From Prorocentrum cordatum (taxonomy: Eukaryota; Sar; Dinophyceae; Prorocentrales; Prorocentraceae): a stretch of DNA of 64,000 nt. The position numbers and the translations under genes were made by a program. Shown here one piece after another: positions 3,842 to 50,300 of this stretch. Location: assembly GCA_963575745.1 (NCBI GenBank), contig CAUYUJ010000909.1, forward strand, positions 5,001 to 69,000, read 5' to 3'. The first letter of the stretch is position 1; each line of letters begins with the position of its first letter. Under the pieces are notes generated by a model. It had not been told where the DNA came from. It did not search any database and saw only the letters and a list, made by a program, of their open reading frames with translations.

Positions 3842-4060
3842 TTACCCTGGCGACGTACCCAACCCCTGCGCAAACGCGGGGCGCAAATAGTTTTGGACAC
3901 TTTATAAGGGGGGCGATGACGGAGCGAGGGTTACATATGTCTGCCGACGGAATTCGGGAGACTCGCAGGACACTGGCTACAGGACAAGGACTAGATGAAA
4001 GCTGATTAGTTACAATCCCTGAGCAAACCTAGCCACTTCGAAAGTGGGGATCTCAGATCG
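3842..4060 (+). repeat. Leader of composite repeat unit, copy 1
   Basis: A non-tandem ~220-base sequence that begins TTACCCTGGCGACGTACCCA and ends at the first 101-bp repeat. An almost identical sequence is at 31719-31940, again immediately before a 101-bp array. It therefore behaves as the fixed 5' end of a composite unit. No ORF of note. Confidence 0.85.
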
Positions 4061-35913: not shown

Positions 35914-36254
35914 AGCTTGATTTTTCTGTTCGCGTTCCCTCTCTTGGGCCCCTCTTGGGGCCTTCTTGGACGCCTCTTGCGCCGTCTTGAGCGGCTCTGG
36001 GGTCATCTCGGGGCTCTCTTGGGCCGTCTTGGGGCCCTCTTGGGGGCCTCTTGGGCCGTCTGGGAGCGGTTTTGGGAGCCTCTTGGGCGGTGCTAGCGCC
36101 AGAAACACGAAACAGCGAGAATGCAAAACACATCGAACAAATACATGCAAATCAGCGATTTTGCCCTCTCCGGGCGCTCTTGGGCGGCATCCTAGAAGGC
36201 CTGGGCAGTTCAAAACGCATCGTGCGACCTCTTGGGGGCCTCGTGGGGCCTCTT
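35914..36254 (+). repeat. ~340-bp direct repeat R, left copy
   Basis: Begins AGCTTGATTTTTC and contains GAAACACGAAACAGCGAGAA, CATCGAACAAATACATGCAA and GCAGTTCAAAACGCATCGTG. The same sequence in the same orientation is at 49962-50300. The left copy abuts the inverted terminus at 36255. Confidence 0.9.
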
Positions 36255-36277
36255 CTGTGGTGAACCTGGGGGTTGGG

Positions 36278-36410
36278 TTGGGTTGTAAGGTACTTGCAGT
36301 GTAGTTGTAAGGTAGTTGTAAGGTAGCTGCAACATAGTTGCAAGTCGGTTAAGCGTTTGTAAGATCAGGTATCTTACGTAGCTACCTTAGCAAGTCGCAT
36401 AACATTTGCA
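36278..36410. promoter_or_regulatory. Left subterminal repeat cluster
   Basis: GTTGTAAGGTA occurs three times (36282, 36304, 36315), with GTTGCAAGTCGG, TTTGTAAGATC and TAGCAAGTCGC close by. The right end has the related set ATGCAAGTACTTGCAACTAC, CAACTTGTAAGTT and CTTACAACC in inverse orientation. Such clusters are accessory-protein binding sites in CACTA elements. Confidence 0.5.
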
Positions 36411-36879
36411 TCAGTTGGCCAGCACTCGTCTTACCGTATCTTGACTTAGGCCGAGCTGCAACTTGACGCAGCGACATTCTGTTGATGGTTGAAATGGGAT
36501 TTGCCCAATGTTAAAGTCAGAATGCCACTTCACATTTTGTATGCGGGTGGGGCCCGCATTGCTCCTTTTTGATTTTCAAACGTTGCCCGCGGGGCAATTA
36601 TGAATTGAATATTTCAAATGCGTGAAGACGCATCCGTCGCTGGATTATGTGCCAAGTGGCAATGTCACGCTCGACGAGCGACTCCGCGATTAAGTTTGGT
36701 CCGCGTTTGCAGCAACTGCATTCTCCACGATGCGTCGAGTTTGTTTCATGCATCATGCATGCATTCGGTACAACGCGTGGCATTATTTCAAGTGAGATCA
36801 CATTATATATAAAAAAAAATTGCTGTCGCAGCATTGGGACTTGCAGTGACGATGTGTAGGCGTGTCAGGCTCGAGCTCG

Positions 36880-36918
36880 CTTCTCTCTTCTGCAGCTGCT
36901 GCATTTCCAGTGCGCACG
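36880..36918 (+). promoter_or_regulatory. Probable 3' splice or trans-splice acceptor region
   Basis: The pyrimidine-rich GCTCGCTTCTCTCTTCTGCAG is followed by CTGCATTTCCAG just before the ATG at 36919. In dinoflagellates such a site before the start codon would accept the spliced leader. Inferred from position and composition only. Confidence 0.35.
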
Positions 36919-37748
36919 ATGCAGAATTTCTATCCGCGGGAGCTGGTGGATTTCATTAGCGGGCGCATCGAGATGCATCGCGATGGCAAGCTTGCCCGAT
37001 CACAGCTTGGAAGGATTGCGTCGACCGCCTTTTGAAGGATAAGGTCGCCAAGCAGATCGTCGCCGAGGCTGACGAATTCATGATCCATCCCTCGAACCGT
37101 TCTGGTCTTGGCGTGAACGCCTACAACGTCCACAGGGTTGGCGCCATGCTCAGCAAGATCGGCGTTGACCCTGCAGAGCTCGAGAAGGCTGTTGCGTTCG
37201 AGCGCATGCCCACGGATCCGATGAGGTCGCCCCAAGTTGCATTCAATCAAAAGTTGATCTCGTCCAGCAAGGGCATGCTGGCGCCGATGACGGGCGCGGA
37301 GAGGTTCTGCGCGGTGGGGACGGGCCACACCACGCAGTTTTTCAAGGCAATGAAGGCGGGTTGTTCCACCCCTGAACCGACCCTCGCCGACCCGACTAGT
37401 CGGAAGATGAACGCCGAAGGGTTGTCCAAGGACGTGCGTTTCCACGACGCCCTCAAGAAGGGCTGGCGTTGGACCGTCCTGCCGTGGCAGGCAGAAGTCA
37501 CGTGGCCGCACCTTCCAGATTTGGCACAGCGCGCCCTCAACGCGAGCAACAACGTTGCCAGTTTGATGTCGGAGCTCGAAGTGTGCGTGAGCATTGCAGA
37601 ATTTGCAGAACTGGTGCCACCTGGGTCTTCTTTCGGCGACTGCGTTGATGCAGTGAAGATGAACCAGCCTCCGTGCCAGGCAGGCTACTTGGGAATGCAT
37701 CTCTTGCAAATGCGCACGGCGCACGCGGGCGCGGCCACGGCGCGTTGA
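36919..37748 (+). CDS. Element gene 1, N-terminal part (uncharacterised dinoflagellate family)
   Basis: The ATG at 36919 opens MQNFYPRELVDFISGRIEMH, which runs to a stop at about 37035. The frame that continues the protein is another one, open from 36960, giving AWKDCVDRLLKDKVAKQIVA and then ~230 residues to the stop at 37748. The change of frame near 37000-37010 is an indel, not a plausible intron. The region is evenly coding, with motifs FMIHPSNRSGLGVN, VHRVGAMLSKIGVDP, FNQKLISSSKGMLAP and LPDLAQRALNASNN. The last ~20 residues before the stop probably lie in an intron, as the sequence seems to continue at 37853. I recognise the family from memory as abundant in predicted dinoflagellate proteins. 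No catalytic motif is visible; mostly helical, basic. Function unknown; its place inside a TIR element suggests an accessory role in transposition. Confidence 0.7.
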
Positions 37749-37852
37749 AACGCCAGCAACACGTTGCCGATTGCGTTTATCCGACATGCGTCTTGCATGC
37801 AGTCTGCGCTGTGGCCGCGCGCGCCTGTGCCGCGCAGCATCTGCATGGGGGG

Positions 37853-39308
37853 ATGAGTGTCCGCCGAGAGGACTACATTGATAAGATTGGCAAGCTCGCA
37901 ACGCACTGTGGCGGGGGATCTGGCGTCCCGCTGGTTAAGTTCATTGATCGGTTTGGCAAGATGTACGGTGCTAACAAGAAGCGCGGGCAGGATTTCGTTG
38001 CGTCAGCTGTCGACGTCCATTTCGGTGATCTCGAGCCGTGCGTTTTCCTGCGCATCGCAGGCATCCTTGCGAACCTCGCTTCCGATAAGCAGTCGGGCGG
38101 CGTGGCGAAGCTATTGGCCCCCAGCGACGTTGAGAGGTTGAAAGGCAAATCCGTCAAGGACAAAGCGATTGCGCTCGACAGGGACCTTTCCAAATGTTAT
38201 CGCATCGCAGGCTCCCTGCGCGACAGCGGCCACATCGACCTAGAGCAGCATGACATGCTGGTTGGGAAGTTCTTCACTCGTTCAAGTTTGCGCTTAGCCG
38301 GGAAGGGCAAGCAAGGGCCAGAGGGCGTCGTGCATGAGAGCCAGGTTCCGATTATCTCACACTTCGTATCGGAGGCAGCCAGCATGTCTGGCTGCGGCGT
38401 TGTCATAGACACAGACGGCGAGTGGAAACCTCATGCGCCCCTTGAAGCCAGCGAGCCGCATTCTACAGATGACAGGGCGGTCGTGATGACCGAAGAGGAC
38501 CTGCGCAACCCAGAGCGCATCTTGGCAACCAAAGGTTTCACTGTTGGGAGCGTCGTGTTTGGGCGCGCCGTGAGCGCGAATGCGGGGCTGTACAAGATAG
38601 TGTCCATTAGTTCAGCCGAAGTAACCATGGGGCAACTGACTGCATTTACTGAGCCAACGTTTGACGTGAAGGTCGCCCTCGCGCTCTTCTTGAAGGAGTG
38701 GGCGCCACACAAGGGCAGCGTGCCCTTTGCAAGTGTCGATGTCTGCAGGGACGTGCGCTTCGGCGCATCATCTGATGAAGTTGGATGAGGCGCGTTGCAC
38801 TGTGTTCAAAGCCCTCAAAGATTTCGAGTTGATTGCCAATGATGGCACGATGTTGCAACACGGCCTTACCCCCAGCGTCGTCGTTGCTGCCCAGAAGATC
38901 GAGAAGGGCAAGCTCGTCCTTGCCCCGTTCTCTGAGCTGAACAAGATCAAGGCAGAGCCGTCGCAAGGCGCGGCCCAGGTCAAGTGCGGGTCCGCAGCGC
39001 TGCACGCATCGCCCCCGACGAGGGCGACCGATCAGCAGAAGGCCGAATCAGAAGATGTCTTCTTCATTTCCTATTGGTGGGTTCGGGGGACGGACAAAGA
39101 GGACCTTGCCAACGCGGCCCTCGTTCAACAGAGCACCGTCCATATCAGTTTCAAAGCTTACAGGAATACCAAGACCTTGCAGCAGTTCGACAAATTGCTC
39201 GCTTATAAAGCCAAGGAGCACCATGCGCCTTTGCAGTCTGCAAAGAGGGTCAAGCTCTCGGAGGGGGATGCCAAGCCTAAGGGCAAGGCTAGGGCCAAGA
39301 AGAGCTAG
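37853..39308 (+). CDS. Element gene 1, C-terminal part, with a frameshift
   Basis: The ATG at 37853 (MSVRREDYIDKIGKLATHCG) starts a frame to the stop at 38788; I think this is the next exon of the 36919 gene, because the text GVPLVKFIDRFGKMYG continues its family pattern. Near 38725-38770 the protein changes frame: ASVDVCRDVRF ends in one, while LMKLDEARCTVFKALKDFEL continues in another to the stop at 39308. Motifs: DVERLKGKSVKDKA, GFTVGSVVFGRAV and ISYWWVRGTDKEDLAN; the tail is Lys-rich (GDAKPKGKARAKKS), fitting a nuclear, nucleic-acid-associated protein. Two frameshifts in one gene mean either decay or long-read indel errors. Confidence 0.7.
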
Positions 39309-39836
39309 GCCTTCCCCAAATGGCAACGGGCAGTTGCCAATTCCATCGGTTTAGTGCGACCACCATTCGCTCTCTGTTTGATTGCGCTGCAGCGCAACGC
39401 GTCCCGCACGGTGTGCGAATGGCGCAGGTTAAAAGCGCCGTGCGACGCACGCTGCATACACATGCAACGCTTTCACATTTGAGATATCGCCCAGTTGTGT
39501 TTCAAAGGCATACCACCGACCCCTCTCCGCAGCACTCATGCATGCTGTCGTTTGCGGGAGAGGCGCGGGTGGAGCCATAACGAGGGATATGCGAAAACAC
39601 ACATGCTCAACGTTACACCTGCAACTCTAATGTCTCTCCGTCTTTCCATCTCTCCATCTCGATCAATGCGTTGTTCCGTCACTCTCTCCCCTCTCAACAT
39701 CTGTCTTGATCATGCCATCCTCTCTTTCGCGCGTCCGACTCCTCATGCGCGTGCCATGCGCACCGTCCATTGATGGCCCGCTTGTCAGGCGTTTTGCCTC
39801 GAGCGCTGCGCGCGTTGTGTTCGTGGGCCGTGGCGC
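39309..39836. other. Intergenic stretch between element genes 1 and 2
   Basis: No coding frame with supporting composition. CATGCG/GCGCATG-type octamers are frequent, as in the other intergenic parts of the element. It could include introns or an upstream exon of gene 2. Confidence 0.45.
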
Positions 39837-40520
39837 ATGGCCACGCTGGAATGTTCGGTTGCTTGGAGGCTCGAGGTCAATGTTGGCGATCGCATGTGGG
39901 CCCCCAGGGCTGTTCAGAAATGCAGCGGCGACGTGTGCGCCATGGTGCGCCCATACGGTTGCAGTTTGATCAAATCTTTGTTGCTCTGCTCTGGGGAGGA
40001 ATGCCCCAAGTCGACGGCCAGGCCACCTCTCGCCGACGCTCCTGGGTACAAAGCACTTCTTGCTGCGAGGAACGACCTCCTTCGTGAAGATGCTGCACCC
40101 ATGCGCAACCCCCCGCGGCGCCTCTTTGCTCAGAGGAGCAGTCCGAAGCGGAGGCCCAAGCCAAAGCGTAAATCACGCCAAGAGATCAGGGCCCAGAGAG
40201 AGGGGCCGCCCATTGTGATGGACGTCGAATTGCCCTCAGTCGGCGACGCGTCCTTCCCATCGGTCAAGAAGCTGCTCCCAGTCAGGAGCACCGACCACAT
40301 GTGGGTCAACGCTTCCGACGACTCCATCTGCACGCTCGTGCAATGCATCTTCGCGCACGGCGTCACGACCGCCACCGTCACATCAAAGAGGTCGCATTAC
40401 AAGAGGGGCGGTGCCGACGATGAGGATGAGGATGCCAGCGCGCTGCAGGACAAGAGTGATCACGAGGTCAACGATAGCGATGCACGTGACCGTGCAGATG
40501 CCCCAAGTCGCGATTGTTAG
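39837..40520 (+). CDS. Element gene 2, small basic/acidic protein
   Basis: A 227-residue frame from an ATG at 39837. The N-terminal third has several Cys (LECSVAW, KCSGDVC, LLLCSGEEC). The middle is strongly basic (RSSPKRRPKPKRKSRQEIRA, a likely nuclear localisation signal). A conserved-looking globular piece follows (MDVELPSVGDASFPSVKKLL, HMWVNASDDSICTLVQCIF), and the end is acidic (DDEDEDASALQDKSDHEVND). The start is uncertain because an upstream exon is possible. I recognise the middle part, from memory, as another recurrent unnamed dinoflagellate family. It lies between gene 1 and the unrecognised gene 3 on the same strand. Function unknown. Confidence 0.55.
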   Translation: MATLECSVAWRLEVNVGDRMWAPRAVQKCSGDVCAMVRPYGCSLIKSLLLCSGEECPKSTARPPLADAPGYKALLAARNDLLREDAAPMRNPPRRLFAQRSSPKRRPKPKRKSRQEIRAQREGPPIVMDVELPSVGDASFPSVKKLLPVRSTDHMWVNASDDSICTLVQCIFAHGVTTATVTSKRSHYKRGGADDEDEDASALQDKSDHEVNDSDARDRADAPSRDC

Positions 40521-40941
40521 GATCACACGGCCAATGTTTCACATCGGCACCTGCCAGTGCGTACCAGCAATTGTTCGCATATAATAAAATGCACAGAGGT
40601 ATGCAGCGTTGCTCCGTTGTTTTGCGCATGCCTGTCTTCAGCGATACGTTGCTCGACATTTGCAGTGTCAGATACGCTCACCGCATGTTTGCCAAGCTTG
40701 GCCATTCATTTGCGTGCAGCACCTCCACCTCCTCCTTGAGTGCACCCTCGCCGCGTTGCCGGTTGTGCTCCAGCCGTTCGTGGCTATAGCTGCACCAGCC
40801 TGCGGCGCCGCGGGTCTGCCGAGGCCCCCGCGAGCCCCTCGAGGCGCCCGCGGCCCCCCCGAGGGCTTCAGGGGCCTGCCGAGGCCCCCGCGAGCCCCTC
40901 GAGGGCTTCAGGCGCGGCCCCGCGCTCGGGCGCTCGACGCC
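40521..40941. other. Gap between element genes 2 and 3
   Basis: Includes GAGGCCCCCGCGAGCCCCTC repeated twice (40816 and 40877), a ~60-base direct repeat rich in Pro/Arg codons. No gene is supported apart from the possible first exon of gene 3 beginning at 40942. Confidence 0.45.
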
Positions 40942-41700
40942 ATGTCGGCTGCGCGCGAGCTCCTGGCTGGGCCAGCGCCAGCGCCGCCAGCAGCTGATGC
41001 TGGCCAGCAGGGCGACGCCCAGGAGATTACACACGGTAAAATTTATCAGCCCGCCCGTCTTCGCCAAGCTTACGCTGATTCGTCGTGCGCCGATCGCGGC
41101 CCACGACGAGGCAGCGTGAGCGTGGACTGCACAGACGGTGGCGCGCTGGGCGCGCCATCGTTGCAGCTCCCACTGCAAAATCAGGCCCCGATGGGCCTCG
41201 TGGAGGGGGCTTGCACGCCCCAACCAACCGGATTGTTTCTTTTTTTGGTCGGCCTCCGCCGAGGACGACGCCAAGGCGGCCAAGCGTGCCAAGCCGTCGC
41301 GGCCGCGCAGCATGGACTTCCAGATGCTGCTCACCGCGACGGAGGCGCGCAAGGGCGAGCGCGTGGCCAAGTTCGCGGACAGCCTCGCGTTCAGGAGGCT
41401 GCAGGGCAGCAACGAGGACGCCAGCGACGGCCTGGCGCAGTGCCTGCAGGGCGTGTACTACAAGGTGGGTTACGTGAACGGCTCGCCGATCTATCGGCAG
41501 GGGCCTGGCGCGCCCGAGGGGGCCAACAGCAGCGAGCTCTTCTTGGTGTACATTGTGCATGCGGACGAGGAGCACACCTTCTCGCGCTGGGTGGTCTCCA
41601 GCACGTTGGACGTGGGTTCGATCTTGTACTACCCCGACGGCTGCGTGTACGCCAGCGGGATCGGCGACCAGACGACGTGGCCGACCGAGCTCGTCAAGGC
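40942..41700 (+). CDS. Element gene 3, exons 1 and 2 (unrecognised)
   Basis: A short first exon is possible from the ATG at 40942 (MSAARELLAGPAPAPPAADA). A much clearer coding block runs from about 41264 to 41700: SAEDDAKAAKRAKPSRPRS, then MDFQMLLTATEARKGERVAK, LQGVYYKVGYVNGSPIYRQG, SSELFLVYIVHADEEHTFSR and TLDVGSILYYPDGCVYASG. It is preceded by a pyrimidine tract (ATTGTTTCTTTTTTTGG) fitting an acceptor near 41263. The block looks like a compact beta-rich domain of ~140 residues that I do not recognise. It probably splices at ~41693 to the exon at 42317; that joint keeps phase. Strong GC bias at third positions supports coding. Confidence 0.5.
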
Positions 41701-41982
41701 CAGGGGGCGGGCGGGGGAAGGGGTGGGGGAGATTGAATTTTGCAGTGCGCCTGCAACAGCGGTTGGCCTACGACGGCCCATGGGGGCGACTGGGCCCATA
41801 TAGGGCTCGATGGGTTATCGCCCCCCCCTCCTACTCCTCCGCCTCCTCCTCCTCCTCCTCCTCCTCCTCTTTCTCATGCCTCCCCTCTTCATCTTTTTTC
41901 CTTCAGCCTCGTCCAGCTTCCTCCTCCCTCCTGATGCCCTTGTCTTTCCTCCCTCCTCTCCCCTTCCTGCTTCAGGGCAGAT

Positions 41983-42187
41983 GCGTTTGTGACCCCGCTG
42001 CCCCCTTTCCCACGGGCGGGGGGCCGTCGCGCGTGGAAAAACATACCATTACCGACCAAAACGGGCCATGCAAACAACACGTTGTTTTTCGTATTTTGTG
42101 AGATCGCGTTCTGGCGCGTTCGGTGTGTTTTTCCACGCGCGACGGCCTTCCGCCCGCGGGAAAAGGGGGCAGTGGGATCACAAACGC
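41983..42187. mobile_element. 205-bp foldback/MITE-like element
   Basis: Arms of ~61 bases: GCGTTTGTGACCCCGCTGCC, CCCTTTCCCACGGGCGG, CCGTCGCGCGTGGAAAAACA on the left and their inverse on the right (GTTTTTCCACGCGCGACGGC to GGGATCACAAACGC). Arms are about 90% alike around an ~80-base centre. No coding potential. It lies in the presumed intron of gene 3, inside the larger element. Target duplication not resolved. Confidence 0.8.
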
Positions 42188-42316
42188 ACGCTGGCTCGGC
42201 GGAGGGCTGGCGACAAAGAGGGGCGGGGGGGGGGGGGCAACCGTCAAACCGAAGAGGGGGGGGGGGAGCCGCCAAACCGAATCTCGGGCGGCCAAAGAAG
42301 GGATGGGGAGCTGTAA

Positions 42317-42976
42317 GGGAAGGAGGACGAGGAGGAGGATGAGGAGGAGGGCGACGAAGGGGATGATGATGATGAGGAGGAGGAGGAGTCGCCCGAGGGC
42401 CTCACGGATGAGCCGCTGCACTTCCTCGAGGTCGTGCACTACGCCGAGTTTCTCGAGAAGATGCTCGACGAGCAGGCCGCAGCTGCGGCAGCGCTTGCGC
42501 CTGCGGCTGTGCCTGATGCAGCGGCGGCTGCAGGGGGCGGCATCATCAGGGCGTGGCCCGCTGCGAAGAAGCAGCCGACGCCGCCATCGACGCCACCGCC
42601 CTCGGTGCTCGCGCCGCCGCTCCCGCCGCCGCCCGCGGCGCCCGCGCCGATGGACCACCGCTACAACAAGGGCTCCGTCAGCGGCGAGCAGGCGCGCGGC
42701 GGCTGGCCGGCGAGGCCCATGCGCTTGGCGGGCAAGTACGCCGCCGAGGACTGGGCAGGGCGGGGCGCAGTGATCGCGGCCATGGCCAGTGGCGAGATCC
42801 AGAAGGGCAGCGGCTGGTTCGCCGACCAGGGCGAGAAGGCCATCGAGGCCTACAAGAGTGCCGACTACGACACGGTCGAGCGCACACTGGCCGAGGCCCG
42901 CGAGCGTTCCGACTCGAAGGGCCAGGGCAAGGGCAAGGGCAAGGACAAGCCCAAGTCGGGCCGATTTCCACTTTGA
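42317..42976 (+). CDS. Element gene 3, last exon (acidic/Pro-rich protein)
   Basis: The frame is open just after TGTAAG at 42311-42316, a possible acceptor. It begins with an acidic run (GKEDEEEDEEEGDEGDDDDE), then EGLTDEPLHFLEVVHYAEFL, an Ala-rich and Pro-rich linker, MDHRYNKGSVSGEQARGGWP, RPMRLAGKYAAEDWAGRGAV, and ends Gly/Lys-rich (GQGKGKGKDKPKSGRFPL). If joined at 41692, the preceding exon is in the same phase. I do not recognise the family. It could also be an independent gene. Codon composition matches gene 3 exon 2 rather than the flanking repeats. Confidence 0.5.
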   Translation, partial: GKEDEEEDEEEGDEGDDDDEEEEESPEGLTDEPLHFLEVVHYAEFLEKMLDEQAAAAAALAPAAVPDAAAAAGGGIIRAWPAAKKQPTPPSTPPPSVLAPPLPPPPAAPAPMDHRYNKGSVSGEQARGGWPARPMRLAGKYAAEDWAGRGAVIAAMASGEIQKGSGWFADQGEKAIEAYKSADYDTVERTLAEARERSDSKGQGKGKGKDKPKSGRFPL

Positions 42977-43100
42977 GAAGCTGGTGGGCGTCTCCGAGGC
43001 GCTCTCGTTCCTCTCCGAGGTGATGGGGGCGCTGCTATGAGGCACGTCGGCTTCGCAGCTGACAATGGCCGTGGGTGAACCACGGCGACGGCGCCCACGT

Positions 43101-43295
43101 CACTTCAAAGTGTGATCACATTGTGAAGTGTGTAGTCGGCCTCACTTGGAAGTGTGATCACACTTTGAAGCGCGATGAATCCTCGCTTCAAATTGTATTC
43201 ACACTTTGAAGTAACAGGTTATGCGCTTCGAAGTGTGATCACACTTTGAAGTGACGTCGCCTCCGCACTTCAAAGTGCATTCACACTTTCAAGTG
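43101..43295. repeat. Five 30-bp palindromes at ~41-bp period
   Basis: The palindrome half CACTTCAAAGTGTGA is followed by its inverse TCACACTTTGAAGTG. Copies start at 43101, 43143, 43184, 43224 and 43266. Each 30-mer has 0-4 mismatches, and the symmetry is kept better than the spacers. A period of ~41 bp is close to four helical turns, so all sites would face the same side of the DNA. Likely binding sites for a dimeric protein, or a cruciform-forming array. Function inferred. Confidence 0.85.
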
Positions 43296-43662
43296 TTGTT
43301 CTGCGTCCAGGCTCGTGCAGAGCATCAGAGGTAGACTTGGCTGAGCGCAGGCTCAGGAGCAGCGCTATGACGCGCTGCCGCCTGCGCGGTTGCCACACAT
43401 TCGCGTGGCCTATAGGAGGCCGCGCGCGATCCCAGCGGGATGATCGACCGCTCGTGGATCTGTGAACCACATCTCCCTCCGCCTCGTGCGCCCTGTCTCC
43501 GGCCGCCCTCGCCCCCTCCGCCACAGACTGCATCGCCCTCCGATGCAGTCCTCATTCTCGTTACAACGCTCGTTGCATCGCCTCCCGCTGCTCTCCGATT
43601 CGCCAGATGTTCCTGGGATTGCGCATCATGTTGCTGCCCATTGCTTCCCTCTGGCCGCCCGA

Positions 43663-43797
43663 GGGCTGCAGTCCACTGCATTCGCGCCCGACGGCAATGT
43701 CTGCAGTCCACTGCATTAGCGCCCGACGGCAAGGGCTGCAGTCTACTGCGTTAGCGCCCGACGGCAAGGGCTGCAGTCCACTGCGTTCGCGCCCGCG
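43663..43797. repeat. 35-bp tandem repeat, four units
   Basis: CTGCAGTCCACTGCATTCGC then GCCCGACGGCAA, with one- to two-base variants per unit. Confidence 0.9.
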
Positions 43798-43939
43798 GGG
43801 TGGGGATGGGGAGGGGCATGTGGGGATGTAGCGTAGCTGGTTTGCTCAAAGTGTTAGCGCGCACTCGTCGCGCCTCCTCGCGCTCGCTTGAGCTCCTCGC
43901 GCCCCCTTCGCGAAGGCGCCGCAGGCGCGGGCCGGCGCG

Positions 43940-44215
43940 GCGGCGCCGCCGCATGTGCCGCGGGCGCTGCGGCCAAGCGAGAAGGAGCAGATGAAGGCCA
44001 AGAACCGACCTCGCGAAGAGTCGCAACGAATGGAAGGAGATGGCTCTCGGCCCCAAGCGCTTCGTCGAGGGTGCGGCCAACAAGTCGGAGCAGAACAAGT
44101 ACGCGAAGCAGGTCTTCGTCGACGCGAAACGCCTGTGGACTGGCTCGCGCTCCTGCGCCACGCAGTCGAAGCCGACGTCGCCCGGTCGGATGCAGCGCCT
44201 TCATGATACGCAGCA
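43940..44215 (+). CDS. Element gene 4, Lys-rich coding fragment
   Basis: Two adjacent frames together give a protein-like text: LRPSEKEQMKAKN in one, then TDLAKSRNEWKEMALGPKRF, VEGAANKSEQNKYAKQVFVD, AKRLW in the next. The switch is near 44005, so there is a frameshift or a small intron. The frame then enters a GGA microsatellite (44225-44305). The upstream sequence is Arg/Ala-rich and of doubtful coding value. Probably one exon or a decayed remnant; I do not recognise it. Confidence 0.35.
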
Positions 44216-44224
44216 CGGCCAGGA

Positions 44225-44310
44225 CGGGGGGGGGGGGGAGGAGGAGGGGGAGGAGGAGGAGGAGGAGGAGGAGGAGGAGGGGGAGGTGGAGGAGGAGGCG
44301 GAGGAGGATC
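44225..44310. repeat. (GGA)n microsatellite within the element
   Basis: A G run of 12 followed by about 24 GGA-like triplets. Confidence 0.9.
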
Positions 44311-44785
44311 GACGAGACGGATCTTGCCGAGCGATATTGCCAAGCGAGCGCGGAGTTCCAGCCGCGCGCTTCTGCGCTAGACAAATGTTGCCTTCCACCG
44401 CCACAGCGTTTCGTTGCCTCGCGTTGTGATCCAGTTGCGGCGCTTCCGATGCCATGCCCCTGGCCCGCGCTCGCTGTTCGAACCAGGTTCAGCTGCGAGT
44501 CTGACCCGCAAGCCCCCCGAACGGAAACGCATCCATGCAGCCAGTCGGCTTGACACGCACATGAGATTGATGCCTTAAACCGACATCATGATGTTTCCCA
44601 TCTGCGCATTACCATTTGCACTCTGTCATGCATGCGATGCGCCCTGCGCAAGTTGTGACGACCCATGTACTCGTTCATGTTTTCTCTTTGTCAATTGCGA
44701 TCGGCATTCCATTGCCGCGTTCGGATCAAGCCTCGAGGGGCTGCAGGTGCTGCAGGGGTTCAGGGTGCACCGCGCGCCGTCCGAC

Positions 44786-46342
<1,557 letters not shown>

Positions 46343-47306
46343 TATATGTCAGATATGTCGAGCATCAGCGCTGATTAGATGCGCGAGCTGACGGGTCTCT
46401 ATAAATGCACTACATGAGTATAGAGTATGGGTTGTGCGTCATTGCTCGCATCTGGTTCCTTCGGCGCTTTGCGAATCGATCACCGCTAGCGTACATATGA
46501 GAAACCAATGTATCGCATGCCATCTGCCTTGCCTGCGCACTAGGGCGCGTCTCTCCGCGTGTTTACGCGTCGGCATGTGCGCATGCAGCGCGCGTTCCGC
46601 GCATCGCTGCAGCACCCCCTGCAATCGCGCCCGCGGCGCGGCCTTCGGGCTTGCAGCTGCGGCTGCAATGTTGTTTGTGTGATTGCACATCGCGGCACAC
46701 CGTGATCGCGCGCTCCAGGGATGATCGGCGGAGGGGTCCGTTCTCAGACGGGGGGCGACGCATGGGGGGGGGGGGGAGGGAAAGGGGGAAGGGGGGGGGT
46801 GCATGGGGCAGTGGGGCACACGTGGGGAAGCATGGGCGAGGTGAGTTTTTTTTTTTGGGGGGGGCGGGAGCATGAACAGCCGATGCAGTTATGACTGCAT
46901 GTGCAATTGAGGCAGCACGCATGCGCCCTCTGCAATATCGATTGCAGTTGTGATTGCATGAGCGCATTCAGTTGCAACTGCAGGATCTCTGCATTCACAG
47001 ATGCGTTCAAGCACGCGCGCCCGATCGCAGGACATGCGTTCAGATGCGCAGGTGATTGCGCATGCCATGCGCACGCTGTTGCCATGCAATCCTTGATGTG
47101 CTCGATGAAGTGGCGCGCGCAGGTGGCTGCAACGGTGACTGCGCCCGTGGTGCAAGCAATCTTTTTCAAATGATGAGTCGCATATGTTTCAGGTCCCCCA
47201 TATTTCCTATGCAAACCCATGCGCTGCTATGCGCCATCGTCGCGCCAACCCCCATGCGCGCAATTGCCGTATATGGCTCGAGGGCGGGCTCGCGGTTGCG
47301 CTGCCC
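46343..47306. other. Intergenic stretch between element genes 5 and 6
   Basis: No supportable gene. A GGGA-rich tract lies at 46760-46865. CATGCG/TGCGCATGC octamers are frequent. A possible 5' exon of gene 6 may be hidden here, since the frame is open from 47184 but its first 40 residues are not protein-like. Confidence 0.45.
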
Positions 47307-49524
47307 ATGGTGTCCAAACCTGACAAGTACCAGAAGATCAAATCATGGAGGAGGAAATGTCCGCATGCATCTGCTGCTGCACTGGCTGCAATCTTGGACG
47401 AGGTCACGCGGGAACCCTTCTCAGCGTCGCGGAAGGATATCCGTGATGCTAGAGATTCGGTCATAAACCAGTCGACTCCTCATGGTACCTTGTTCCGTGA
47501 GATCACTTGCTCTGCCGAGGATTCCGAGATTAAGTTTCCTGTTGCCAATCTCCCTGCAACATTGTACGTGGCGCACAACCAATGCAGCAACTGGCGGGCC
47601 CTCATTCAAAAGACTTTGGCGGCGAGGCCGTGCTCTTTCGAGCGACCGTGGTCGCTGATATTTTATTATGGCGAGCTAACACCAGGCAGCCAACTATCCC
47701 CAGACAATTCAAGGAAGATGTGGATGTTCTACGTATCGTTTCTAGAACTGGGGCCAGAAGTGTTGTCGCAAGAGGATGCGTGGTTCTGCGTAGGTGCCCT
47801 GAGGTCAAAACGCGTATCCGATATAGATGCAGGCGTCGCACAAGCATTCACAATGCTTATAAAAGACATGGTTTGTAGGTCGGAATGCTCACTGCACACA
47901 ACGGGCGTTTCATTGGAGCCTGGAGTCAGGTTACATTGCAAATTTGGGATGGTTCTCCAGGGCGGCGGTGCCCAGAAGTTGGCTTGGCGGATTAAAGGGG
48001 ATGCAGGTACCAAATGCTGCATGCTTTGCCGCAATGTAATTGCGATGGGCAGCTCCCTGGTCGACGAAGATGGGGTGACCCTGCTGGGAGCAGACGCCAT
48101 GCGTGAGGGTGACATCGATGTTGCGACGAATGATGACATCAGGGGGAGCGCGCGGCGGCTGGCTGCATTCCACGCGACGGACACCAACGCCAATTTCAAG
48201 ACCTGCGCGGGGCCTGCAAACTCAAAGGAGGGAGGATGACCTATAGGATGACGAAGGGTGGGAAGATGATGAAGGGGAGTGGGATTGGAAGGGGAAGGCG
48301 AGGATGACGAGTGTGGCCCCAGGATCCGCGAGCAAGCGTTCGGTTTCAACCATAATGAGCAGAACATGCTGCTCGATCCACAGCTGGATCGCATTATCTT
48401 ACCTGTTGACCAGTATTGCCACGACTGGATGCGCGCATTTTTTATTCGGTGTGTTTTTAACATTTCGACGCATCTCTTTCTTGCAGGTTGTAAGAGTAAT
48501 GGGTTGCCCAACGTATACTCATGTTTCGAGGGATACATCAAGATGTGGTCACTGCCCATCGCGCGCGGCAGCGCTGATAACTTTGCTAAGTTTTTGTTTT
48601 CAGAAGGGCCGCGATACTTCCAACGGCAAGGCGAAGGCGTTTAAGTGCCGGGCGAGTGAGGCATTGACTTTGCTGCCAATGATGTAAACGTATGTGATGA
48701 CGGTTATATTGCCTGCAGGGGTAGCACGCGCGGAGTGCACCGTTTTTGTTCGGTTGTGTGATTTGGTGCGGTGCATCGAAGCTGCAGCATCACCCCGTGC
48801 GTCTGCTGACGCTCTCAGGAACAGGACGAACGCGTTTCTGGATGCTTGTGAAGCAGCAGGGTGGCAGGAATACATGACGCCGAAGTTTCACTGGCTGGTC
48901 CATTTCCCAAGGCACCCGATCAAGTTCGGATGCCTCCTGTCGTGTTTTGTGCACGAGAGAAAGCACAGAGTGCCCAAGCGGTTCTGCAATGATATGCGCC
49001 AGCTGGCAGCTTCTGAGAGGAGCGCGCTGTCCGAGGTCACATGCCTGCATTTGGCAAATTTGCGCAGCACCAACGTGTTCGACTTCTCGCCGCACTTGGT
49101 GCGCCCCAGGGCGGCACCTAAGAAGATGCACGCCTTCCTTGAGGAGAAGCTCGGCCAGCGCCTCCCCAGGGACAGCACGACCACGGCTCTTTCGGCTCGG
49201 GTGTCGACGTTGTCGACATGCCAATCCCGCGACATCGTGCTGCTCTCCGTTGCCAATGGTGGCAAGGCGTGTGGGGAGGTTTGGTTTCACGCTGCTGTAA
49301 ACGGGACGATGGTATCGCTGGTTTCAATCTGGGACACCCCTCGCTACGATGATCGGCTCGGCGTGCTGACCGTGCACCCAACCGACGACGACTTGCAGCT
49401 GGCGCACACGACCGACATCATCACTGCCATGGCGGGGCGTTTGCCAAGTTTCCGAACCATCACCACCACTATACGGGCGTGCCGTCTGCAAGCAACTGTC
49501 CGCTTTGCACACGTGCAATTGTGA
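47307..49524 (+). pseudogene. Element gene 6, transposase-like protein, broken
   Basis: The first part (ATG 47307 to TGA 48239) has PHGTLFREITCSAEDSEIKF, WSLIFYYGELTPGSQLSPDN, SFLELGPEVLSQEDAWF and a Cys pair GTKCCMLCRNVI. An intron (~48217-48321, same phase) probably leads to IREQAFGFNHNEQNMLLDPQ and VDQYCHDWMRAFFIRCVFN. One extra base near 48601 shifts the frame (KGRDTSNGKAKAFKCRASEA). A TAA at 48685-48687 then interrupts, after which the same frame continues MTVILPAGVARAECTVFVRL to 49524, including MTPKFHWLVHFPRHPIKFG and CFVHERKHRVPKRF. The KFHWLVHF..FG..ERKH pattern resembles the C-terminal half of CACTA/Plavaka-type transposases. The first acidic position, which I expect as Asp before E in FYYGELTPG, is Gly here. 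Most likely a dead DDE transposase copy; the assignment is by motif memory. Confidence 0.65.
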
Positions 49525-49779
49525 AAAATGCATGGTGGACATTTGCGATGTGGGACGTCCGTTGTGGTTGGTTGGAAAGTTTTGAAGACTTGCAAGGCAT
49601 GCAGGCGCCATGGAGGCGGATCAATCGCGATAGTGCCTCCCATGTTCAAGTGGTGAGACATCGCGTGAGCTGCTACCTGCTTTCTTATGCGCAGCAGCGG
49701 GAAAAAAAAACATGGTTTTCCAATGCAGGTGTCGCTCGCCTTGCGCATCGCGCATAGAAAAACAACAATTCGGGAGTTA

Positions 49780-49907
49780 AAAACGCAGTGGCTGCACGTC
49801 AACATGCAAGTACTTGCAACTACTTGCGTTCAGTTAGCGCAACTTGTAAGTTCCGAAATCAACTTGCTAAGTCTGCTAAATCTTACAACCACCCAAGTTC
49901 ACCACAG
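49780..49907. promoter_or_regulatory. Right subterminal repeats and inverted terminus
   Basis: TGCAAGTACTTGCAACTACT, CAACTTGTAAGTT and TCTTACAACCACCC lead to the terminus GTTCACCACAG (49897-49907), inverse of the left end at 36255. Confidence 0.55.
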
Positions 49908-49961
49908 TTGGGGGCTTCCTGGGGGCCTCTTGGGGCCTCTTGGGGGCATCTTGGGGCGGAG

Positions 49962-50300
49962 AGCTTGATTTTTCACTTCGCCTTCCCTCTCTTGGGCCCC
50001 TCTTGGATCCTTCTTGGGAGCCTCTTGCGCCGTCTTGGGCGGCTCTGGTCTTGGGCCGTCTTGGGGCCCTCTTGTGGGCCTCTTGGGCCGTCTTGGAGCG
50101 GTTTGGGGAACCTCTGGGGCGTTGCTTTAACGCCGGAAACACGAAACAGCGAGAATGCAAAAAAACATCGAACAAATACATGCAAATCAACGATTTTGCC
50201 CTCTCCGGGCGCTCTTGGGCGGCATCCTAAAGGCCTCGTGGGATCCTCCGGGGCAGTTCAAAACGCATCGTGCGACCTCTTGGGATTCTCGTGGGGCCTC
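49962..50300 (+). repeat. ~340-bp direct repeat R, right copy
   Basis: Matches 35914-36254 throughout, with small indels. Here 54 bases of CTTGGGGCC-type repeat separate it from the element's end, and a CTC microsatellite (50298-50345) follows. Confidence 0.9.

Follow-up and report, generated by a model that had tools for sequence, protein, structure and literature searches.

The question raised by this locus is whether the gene-like regions at positions 36255-49907 (13,653 bp) of the 64,000-nucleotide stretch of Prorocentrum cordatum DNA analysed here (the window) form one mobile element, and of which kind. Genomes of dinoflagellates are very large, and neither their repeats nor their orphan proteins have been classified well. 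An earlier reading of the letters alone (the sequence-only reading) had proposed that genes 1, 2, 5 and 6 are the gene set of a single transposon of a new class or subclass, bounded by inverted ends with related subterminal motifs. Our results indicate that 36255-49907 is very probably a cut-and-paste DNA transposon with several genes, present here as a degraded copy, in which gene 6 is predicted to encode a RAG1/Transib-type transposase.

Ends, target-site duplications and empty sites

The inverted ends proposed at 36255 and 49907 were exact at both positions, with the left terminal inverted repeat (TIR) CTGTGGTGAACCTGGG on the plus strand and the right TIR CTGTGGTGAACTTGGG on the minus strand (Table 1). 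A scan of the 64-kb window allowing up to 3 mismatches gave six further matches, every one with 3 mismatches. TT was found directly outside both ends, and the insertion lies inside a CTCTTGGGG minisatellite, the flank at 35914-36252 being about 85% similar to the flank at 49962-50300. The proposed kinship of the subterminal motifs was observed as well. GTTGYAAG has four occurrences in the left end (246 bp), two in the right end (208 bp) and two in the intervening 13.2 kb, and none outside. With the TIRs excluded, the two ends have 22 7-mers and 13 8-mers in common; 0.21% and 0.28% of randomly drawn internal pairs, respectively, have as many or more.

The window's own assembly (4,128,499,153 bases in 21,875 contigs) contained 71 exact matches to the TIR pattern, 67 of which have C or T at the variable position, compared to 2 for the reversed control; the element is present in dozens of copies. 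Twenty-three pairs of opposed ends bound elements of this family (family A): 21 are 13.5-14.5 kb long, one of 7.9 kb is internally deleted (C13656), and one is 23.3 kb (C21407). Twelve further end loci were inspected, and three of them (L072, L073 and L075), which have no subterminal sequence, appear to match by chance. Copies were retrieved as 20-kb stretches for the ten gene 6 matches ranking next below that of the window. Seven of these ten copies (C10313, C14778, C14035, C15513, C15522, C16318 and C17936) aligned with the window element along essentially its full length, including genes 3 and 4; most pieces are 92-98% identical and one short piece is 88-90% identical. Deletions, interruptions or rearrangements affect the remaining three. 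Pairwise identities among eight copies including the window ranged from 95.9 to 99.1%, and those of the window to the other seven from 95.9 to 97.0%. Six of the eight are mutually 98.6-99.1% identical, which shows that these six were amplified recently.

Flanks were compared for 22 family A copies, namely 20 of the 23 end pairs plus C10313 and C14778, the right ends of which are slightly different; C1412, C11112 and the first C14035 copy were excluded because of contig edges or an abutting copy. An exact 2-bp target-site duplication (TSD) was observed in 19 of the 22 copies (TA 6, CA 6, TG 5 and TT 2), and no longer duplication was found among lengths of 1-12 bp. The copies without an exact TSD are C8819 (TT/CA), C12546 (CG/CT) and C17936 (CA/TA). 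Since a 2-bp match is expected by chance at a rate of 0.107 in the same flanks, 19 of 22 would correspond to a probability of 4e-16 if all copies were independent; the window, C10313 and C8819 have the same left flank and hence are not independent insertions. Two diverged families behaved in the same way. All 4 family B copies (TA 3, TG 1) and all 9 family C copies (TA 4, CA 3, TG 1, CT 1) have exact 2-bp TSDs, and none was longer when 3 bp was tested. The 2-bp length is therefore fixed across the three families in 32 of 35 copies, and 29 of these 32 TSDs are, as a raw count, pyrimidine-purine steps.

Clean empty sites, which the sequence-only reading had named as a check, were present for two copies, C15522 and C14778, among the repeat units neighbouring insertions within the retrieved stretches. 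When the flanks were joined with one copy of the TSD, they aligned gap-free to uninterrupted adjacent repeat units along 198 of 198 bases, with identities of 99.5% for C15522 and 97.5% for C14778. TIRs at the boundary, a fixed-length TSD and empty sites, the hallmarks of a class II element, were thus all found.

These observations bear on the possibility that the locus is a host multigene cluster spread by segmental or tandem duplication, with ends that merely resemble inverted repeats. The left flank common to the window, C10313 and C8819 is what such a history would leave, and because of it at least these three copies probably derive from one site by segmental duplication. However, 17 further family A copies and 13 of 13 copies of families B and C have different flanks with exact 2-bp TSDs, homology stops at the TIRs, and empty sites exist. 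The TSDs and empty sites refute the host cluster, which we consider extremely improbable.

Several family A insertions were seen in one type of tandem repeat: L036/L037 (C15522, units of about 131 bp), L051 (C14035), L048/L049 (C12546) and L052/L053 (C14044). This suggests that the tandem-repeat array is a favoured target of family A. At one further locus (L032, C14035:247182-247197), two family A copies stand head to head, and at the junction the second has lost about 12 bases from its start.

A linked gene set in three diverged families

The sequence-only reading would have been contradicted by genomic copies of the genes lying apart from each other, and this was not seen. Genome searches gave 129 matches for gene 6, 143 for gene 5 and 130 for gene 2, which merged into 108, 124 and 110 loci, respectively. 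Among the gene 6 loci with at least 80% identity, gene 5 was located just upstream on the same strand in 34 of 35 (median distance 2.8 kb) and gene 2 was present in 30 of 35 (median 9.9 kb), and the sole locus without genes 5 and 2 begins at a contig edge. At 50-79% identity, gene 5 accompanied gene 6 in 30 of 35 loci and gene 2 in 23 of 35. At 30-49% identity, the counts were at least 6 of 38 for gene 5, at least 18 of 38 for gene 2 and at least 21 of 38 for either, these being lower bounds because the search scored the best candidates only. At 4 of the 108 gene 6 loci, gene 5 or gene 2 lay in the opposite orientation within 25 kb. Together with the 71 TIR matches and the seven full-length copies, the linkage provides the further insertions, alike in ends and in gene order, that had been looked for, and the ends, TSDs, empty sites and linkage bear out the proposal that genes 1, 2, 5 and 6 are the gene set of one mobile element.

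The gene order 1/2, 2b, 3/4, 5, 6 is conserved in three diverged families, although genes 3/4 went undetected in the most distant one. In family B (C8271, element of 16.9 kb with ends CTGGTGTGAAC/CTGCAGTGAAC), the identities are, in order, 78% for gene 1, 62% for gene 2, 54% for gene 2b, 53% for gene 3, 42% for gene 4, 49% for gene 5, and 71% and 69% for gene 6. In family C (C18711, element of 15.7 kb with ends CTGAGATGAA/CTGAGATGCA), they are 36% for gene 1, 26% for gene 2, 22% for gene 2b, 28% for gene 5, and 37% and 34% for gene 6, which is one uninterrupted frame of 706 codons. A tblastn search of C18711 gave no match to genes 3/4, although a 513-codon frame occupies that place. All three families have CTG..CAG ends. 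In family C, the 19-mer of the left end had 18 genome matches compared to 0 for the control, and 7 of 7 right ends fell within the 121-bp stretch predicted from a fixed offset. Subterminal repeats are common to families A and B; the GTTGYAAG motif was not found at the family C ends, where other repeated words are present.

Within family A, pN/pS (nonsynonymous to synonymous polymorphism) of the genes was 0.63-1.56, no lower than the 0.49-1.09 of intergenic controls, as expected if most copies are no longer under selection. Constraint was therefore tested between families. Comparing C17936 with C8271, the ratio of nonsynonymous to synonymous substitution rates (dN/dS) was 0.18 for gene 1, 0.21 for gene 2, 0.21 for gene 2b, 0.65 for gene 3, 0.60 for gene 4, 0.19 for gene 5, and 0.07 and 0.15 for gene 6, values which are rough because dS was high for some genes (0.5-2.4). 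Genes 1, 2, 2b, 5 and 6 are constrained between families (0.07-0.21), clearly so for genes 1, 2, 2b and 5.

CACTA elements combine a transposase with an accessory gene and are known for gene capture. By analogy, the element could be a one- or two-gene CACTA-like transposon in which gene 6, perhaps with gene 5, does the work and the rest is captured host cargo. The weak constraint on genes 3 and 4 and the lack of any Pfam domain above cut-off in the accessory products tested (among them genes 1/2, 2b and 3/4) are in line with such passengers. On the other hand, the gene order has been kept across families whose transposases are only 37% identical, genes 1, 2, 2b and 5 are clearly constrained (0.18-0.21), and gene 2 accompanies 30 of 35 close gene 6 loci. 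We consider the captured-cargo explanation unlikely.

The coding state differs among copies. C17936 has open frames for gene 1, gene 2 (519 codons) and the two gene 6 exons (320 and 415 codons). Its gene 5 frame has 478 codons and is without about the first 25 residues, which are in another frame, and several other copies have a gene 5 frame of 555 codons. In the window, genes 1, 2 and 6 are broken, the frames of the second gene 6 exon between 48300 and 48687, and both catalytic Asp positions of gene 6 are Gly. The window copy is a degraded, dead transposon copy. Since both catalytic Asp residues and several frames are lost, it could be moved only in trans.

Genes 1 and 2 of the window look like two exons of one gene. 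By eye, the two parts are joined in the protein P0021 (756 amino acids), and in several family C copies one frame of 725-730 codons spans this region, so that relatives have a single gene here. Genes 3 and 4, too, are perhaps two exons of one gene.

The predicted transposase and the known kinds of transposons

Pfam searches with nine window frames and with sets of 4 and 6 further proteins gave nothing above cut-off; below it there were weak matches only, e.g. DUF6033 on the lysine run of gene 5. Among the further proteins there was no Transposase_21 (TNP2) match at E values up to 10, a search which may miss distant members, and a sequence-profile search of the PDB gave nothing usable. Structure was compared on predicted models of gene 6 relatives only, with predicted local distance difference test (pLDDT) scores of 55 and 64, and against the fold families listed. 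For the modest-confidence family C model, the best Foldseek match was RAG1 (E 5.6e-7), and all 12 matches at E <0.001 were RAG1 chains; Transib was also among the structural matches of the transposase models. An RNase H-like fold of the RAG1 type with D, D and E was observed in these models. The pattern in C18711 is D126, D226, C245xxC248, H492xxxH496 and E514, and in gene 6 relatives C(2)C and H(3)H lie between the second D and the last E. On these predicted folds and motifs, we infer that gene 6 encodes a RAG1/Transib-type DDE transposase of the CACTA-Mirage-Chapaev-Transib (CMCT) clade.

Transib has a TSD of 5 bp, and RAG2 carries a chromatin-reader domain. RAG1/RAG2 and Transib/ProtoRAG gave the best structural matches to the present element, and a chromatin-reader-like domain may be common to both, in RAG2 there and possibly at the C-terminus of the transposase here, where a BAH/Tudor-like domain could read chromatin. 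The present element is unlike them in its 2-bp TSD and in having accessory genes without a Pfam domain.

The passages of PMC12730594 on CMCT elements describe a C(2)C and an H(3-4)H motif ahead of the last E, TSDs of 2-5 bp and mostly 5'-CA..TG-3' termini. The present element agrees in both motifs, in a TSD within that range (2 bp) and in the RAG1-like predicted fold. It departs from CMCT elements in having CTG..CAG instead of the usual CA..TG termini, about five conserved genes and no Pfam transposase family. For EnSpm, the same source gives CAC.. termini and a 3-bp TSD (PMC12730594). Short inverted ends, subterminal repeats (families A and B) and a transposase with an accessory gene are features in common with CACTA/EnSpm, whereas the 2-bp instead of 3-bp TSD, the absence of a CAC.. 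terminus and the larger number of genes are not; Transposase_21 gave no match in the searches described above, which may overlook distant members. The new transposon class or subclass of the sequence-only reading, for which CACTA served as the comparison, agrees with a CMCT-type multi-gene lineage on the predicted fold and motifs, but a place within CACTA proper is unsupported, given the CTG..CAG ends, the 2-bp TSD and the absence of any Pfam family at cut-off.

The fungal transposons PlavakaA (TGT..ACA ends, 2-bp TSD) and ESTA (TA-only TSD) both resemble the present element in the 2-bp TSD, but our termini are CTG..CAG instead of TGT..ACA and our targets are TA, CA, TG, TT and CT; the passages on PlavakaA and ESTA in that source describe no such gene set (PMC12730594). 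Symbiodinium introners are described in the passages of PMC9860276 on them as TIR elements with 4-bp TSDs. Like the present element, they are TIR elements in dinoflagellate genomes, but their TSD differs. As there was also no family A end pair shorter than 7.9 kb, the idea that this element is the autonomous partner of introners was unsupported.

Its size (13-17 kb) and its several genes in the same direction would also suit the remnant of a virus-like or virophage-like integrated element of the Maverick type. No viral Pfam family was found above cut-off in the protein sets searched, and the patterns used retrieved no relatives of gene 6 or gene 2 from IMG/VR; the predicted RAG1-like transposase and the 2-bp TSD also argue against a Maverick, and such an origin is barely conceivable. 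The exact TIR pattern had 13 matches in IMG/VR.

The best reading is that the element belongs to a new multi-gene lineage of RAG1/CACTA-type cut-and-paste transposons. In a possible mechanism, the gene 6 transposase would cut at CTG..CAG, and the element would be joined to target ends staggered by 2 bp, mostly at pyrimidine-purine steps. An accessory protein (gene 5 or gene 1/2) may bind the GTTGYAAG subterminal repeats, gene 5 being the first candidate with its lysine/alanine-rich C-terminus, and the BAH-like domain may guide target choice. Since the end and TSD features of CACTA, PlavakaA and ESTA did not fit and no such gene set was found among the papers listed, the rank is plausibly that of a superfamily. 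No description of such an element or gene set in dinoflagellates was found among these papers, subscription papers and Repbase Reports lying outside the scope, so that absence is not proven. With moderate confidence, we lean towards a superfamily-level RAG1-type lineage, possibly dinoflagellate-wide, in which the element encodes its own multi-protein machine, a chromatin-reader-like transposase with about four co-inherited accessory proteins for which no described counterpart was found.

Several orphan proteins without a previously known role therefore travel together as one mobile element, which can be scanned for by its CTG..CAG ends, 2-bp TSD and fixed gene order and gives annotators a reason to mask these genes. 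The RAG1/CACTA group would gain a protist relative with an unusually rich gene set, in which the need for accessory proteins is directly testable. If the superfamily-level reading is true, one kind of element would account, through its gene set, for much of the unclassified repeats and orphan genes in dinoflagellate genomes. These proteins are presumably abundant in other dinoflagellates, which the protein searches did not show: two public searches gave 12 and 7 proteins, the single organism-named one being from Pyramimonas. By eye, this protein (P0009, EukProt, Pyramimonas sp.) is nearly identical to the gene 6 frame of C8271 (family B) except for a short stretch that is missing; the likeness may be due to contamination or mixing of cultures, to horizontal transfer, or to the protein stemming from a spliced transcript of the element.

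Feature coordinates and minor observations

Table 1. Positions of the features of the element in the window.
Feature	Positions	Strand	Observation
TSD TT, left copy	36253..36254	.	Flank comparison; 2-bp TSDs in 19/22 family A copies
Left TIR CTGTGGTGAACCTGGG	36255..36270	+	Window scan and genome-wide pattern count
Left subterminal repeats, GTTGYAAG and near forms	36282..36363	+	k-mer comparison; also in the 71% family (B)
Gene 1, first part of long accessory protein	36919..37748	+	276-amino-acid open frame in C17936; frame broken once near 36995 in the window
Gene 2, second part of the gene 1 protein	37853..39308	+	519-codon frame in C17936; broken near 38735 in the window
Gene 2b, accessory frame between genes 2 and 3	39774..40520	+	dN/dS 0.21
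Gene 3 exon	41120..41803	+	dN/dS 0.65
Gene 4 exon, possibly same gene as gene 3	42317..42976	+	dN/dS 0.60
Gene 5, basic alanine/lysine-rich C-terminus, candidate DNA-binding accessory protein	44786..46342	+	dN/dS 0.19
95-A run inside gene 5	45322..45416	+	About 80 of these bases missing from 10 other retrieved copies
Gene 6 first exon, N-terminal half of predicted RAG1-like DDE transposase	47289..48239	+	Both catalytic Asp are Gly (codons 47670, 47961)
Gene 6 second exon: H(3)H, catalytic Glu region (codon 48955), BAH/Tudor-like C-terminus	48300..49524	+	415-codon open frame in C17936
Right subterminal repeats	49813..49889	-	End k-mer/motif comparison
Right TIR CTGTGGTGAACTTGGG	49892..49907	-	Window scan and genome-wide pattern count
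TSD TT, right copy	49908..49909	.	Flank comparison

All genes had been placed on the plus strand. This held for the frames with relatives, but long minus-strand frames are present too (e.g. 36930-37934), relatives of which were not sought. The 95-A run in gene 5 reads as poly-Lys and is a local expansion or an assembly artefact. In C10313, about 390 bp with long A-rich runs reading as lysine are inserted in gene 2b (near element position 3893). Two imperfect palindromes of about 200 bp were observed at 41982-42188 and 43089-43295, and they are also present in 7 and 9 of the ten retrieved copies, respectively; they are perhaps older nested miniature elements or hairpins.

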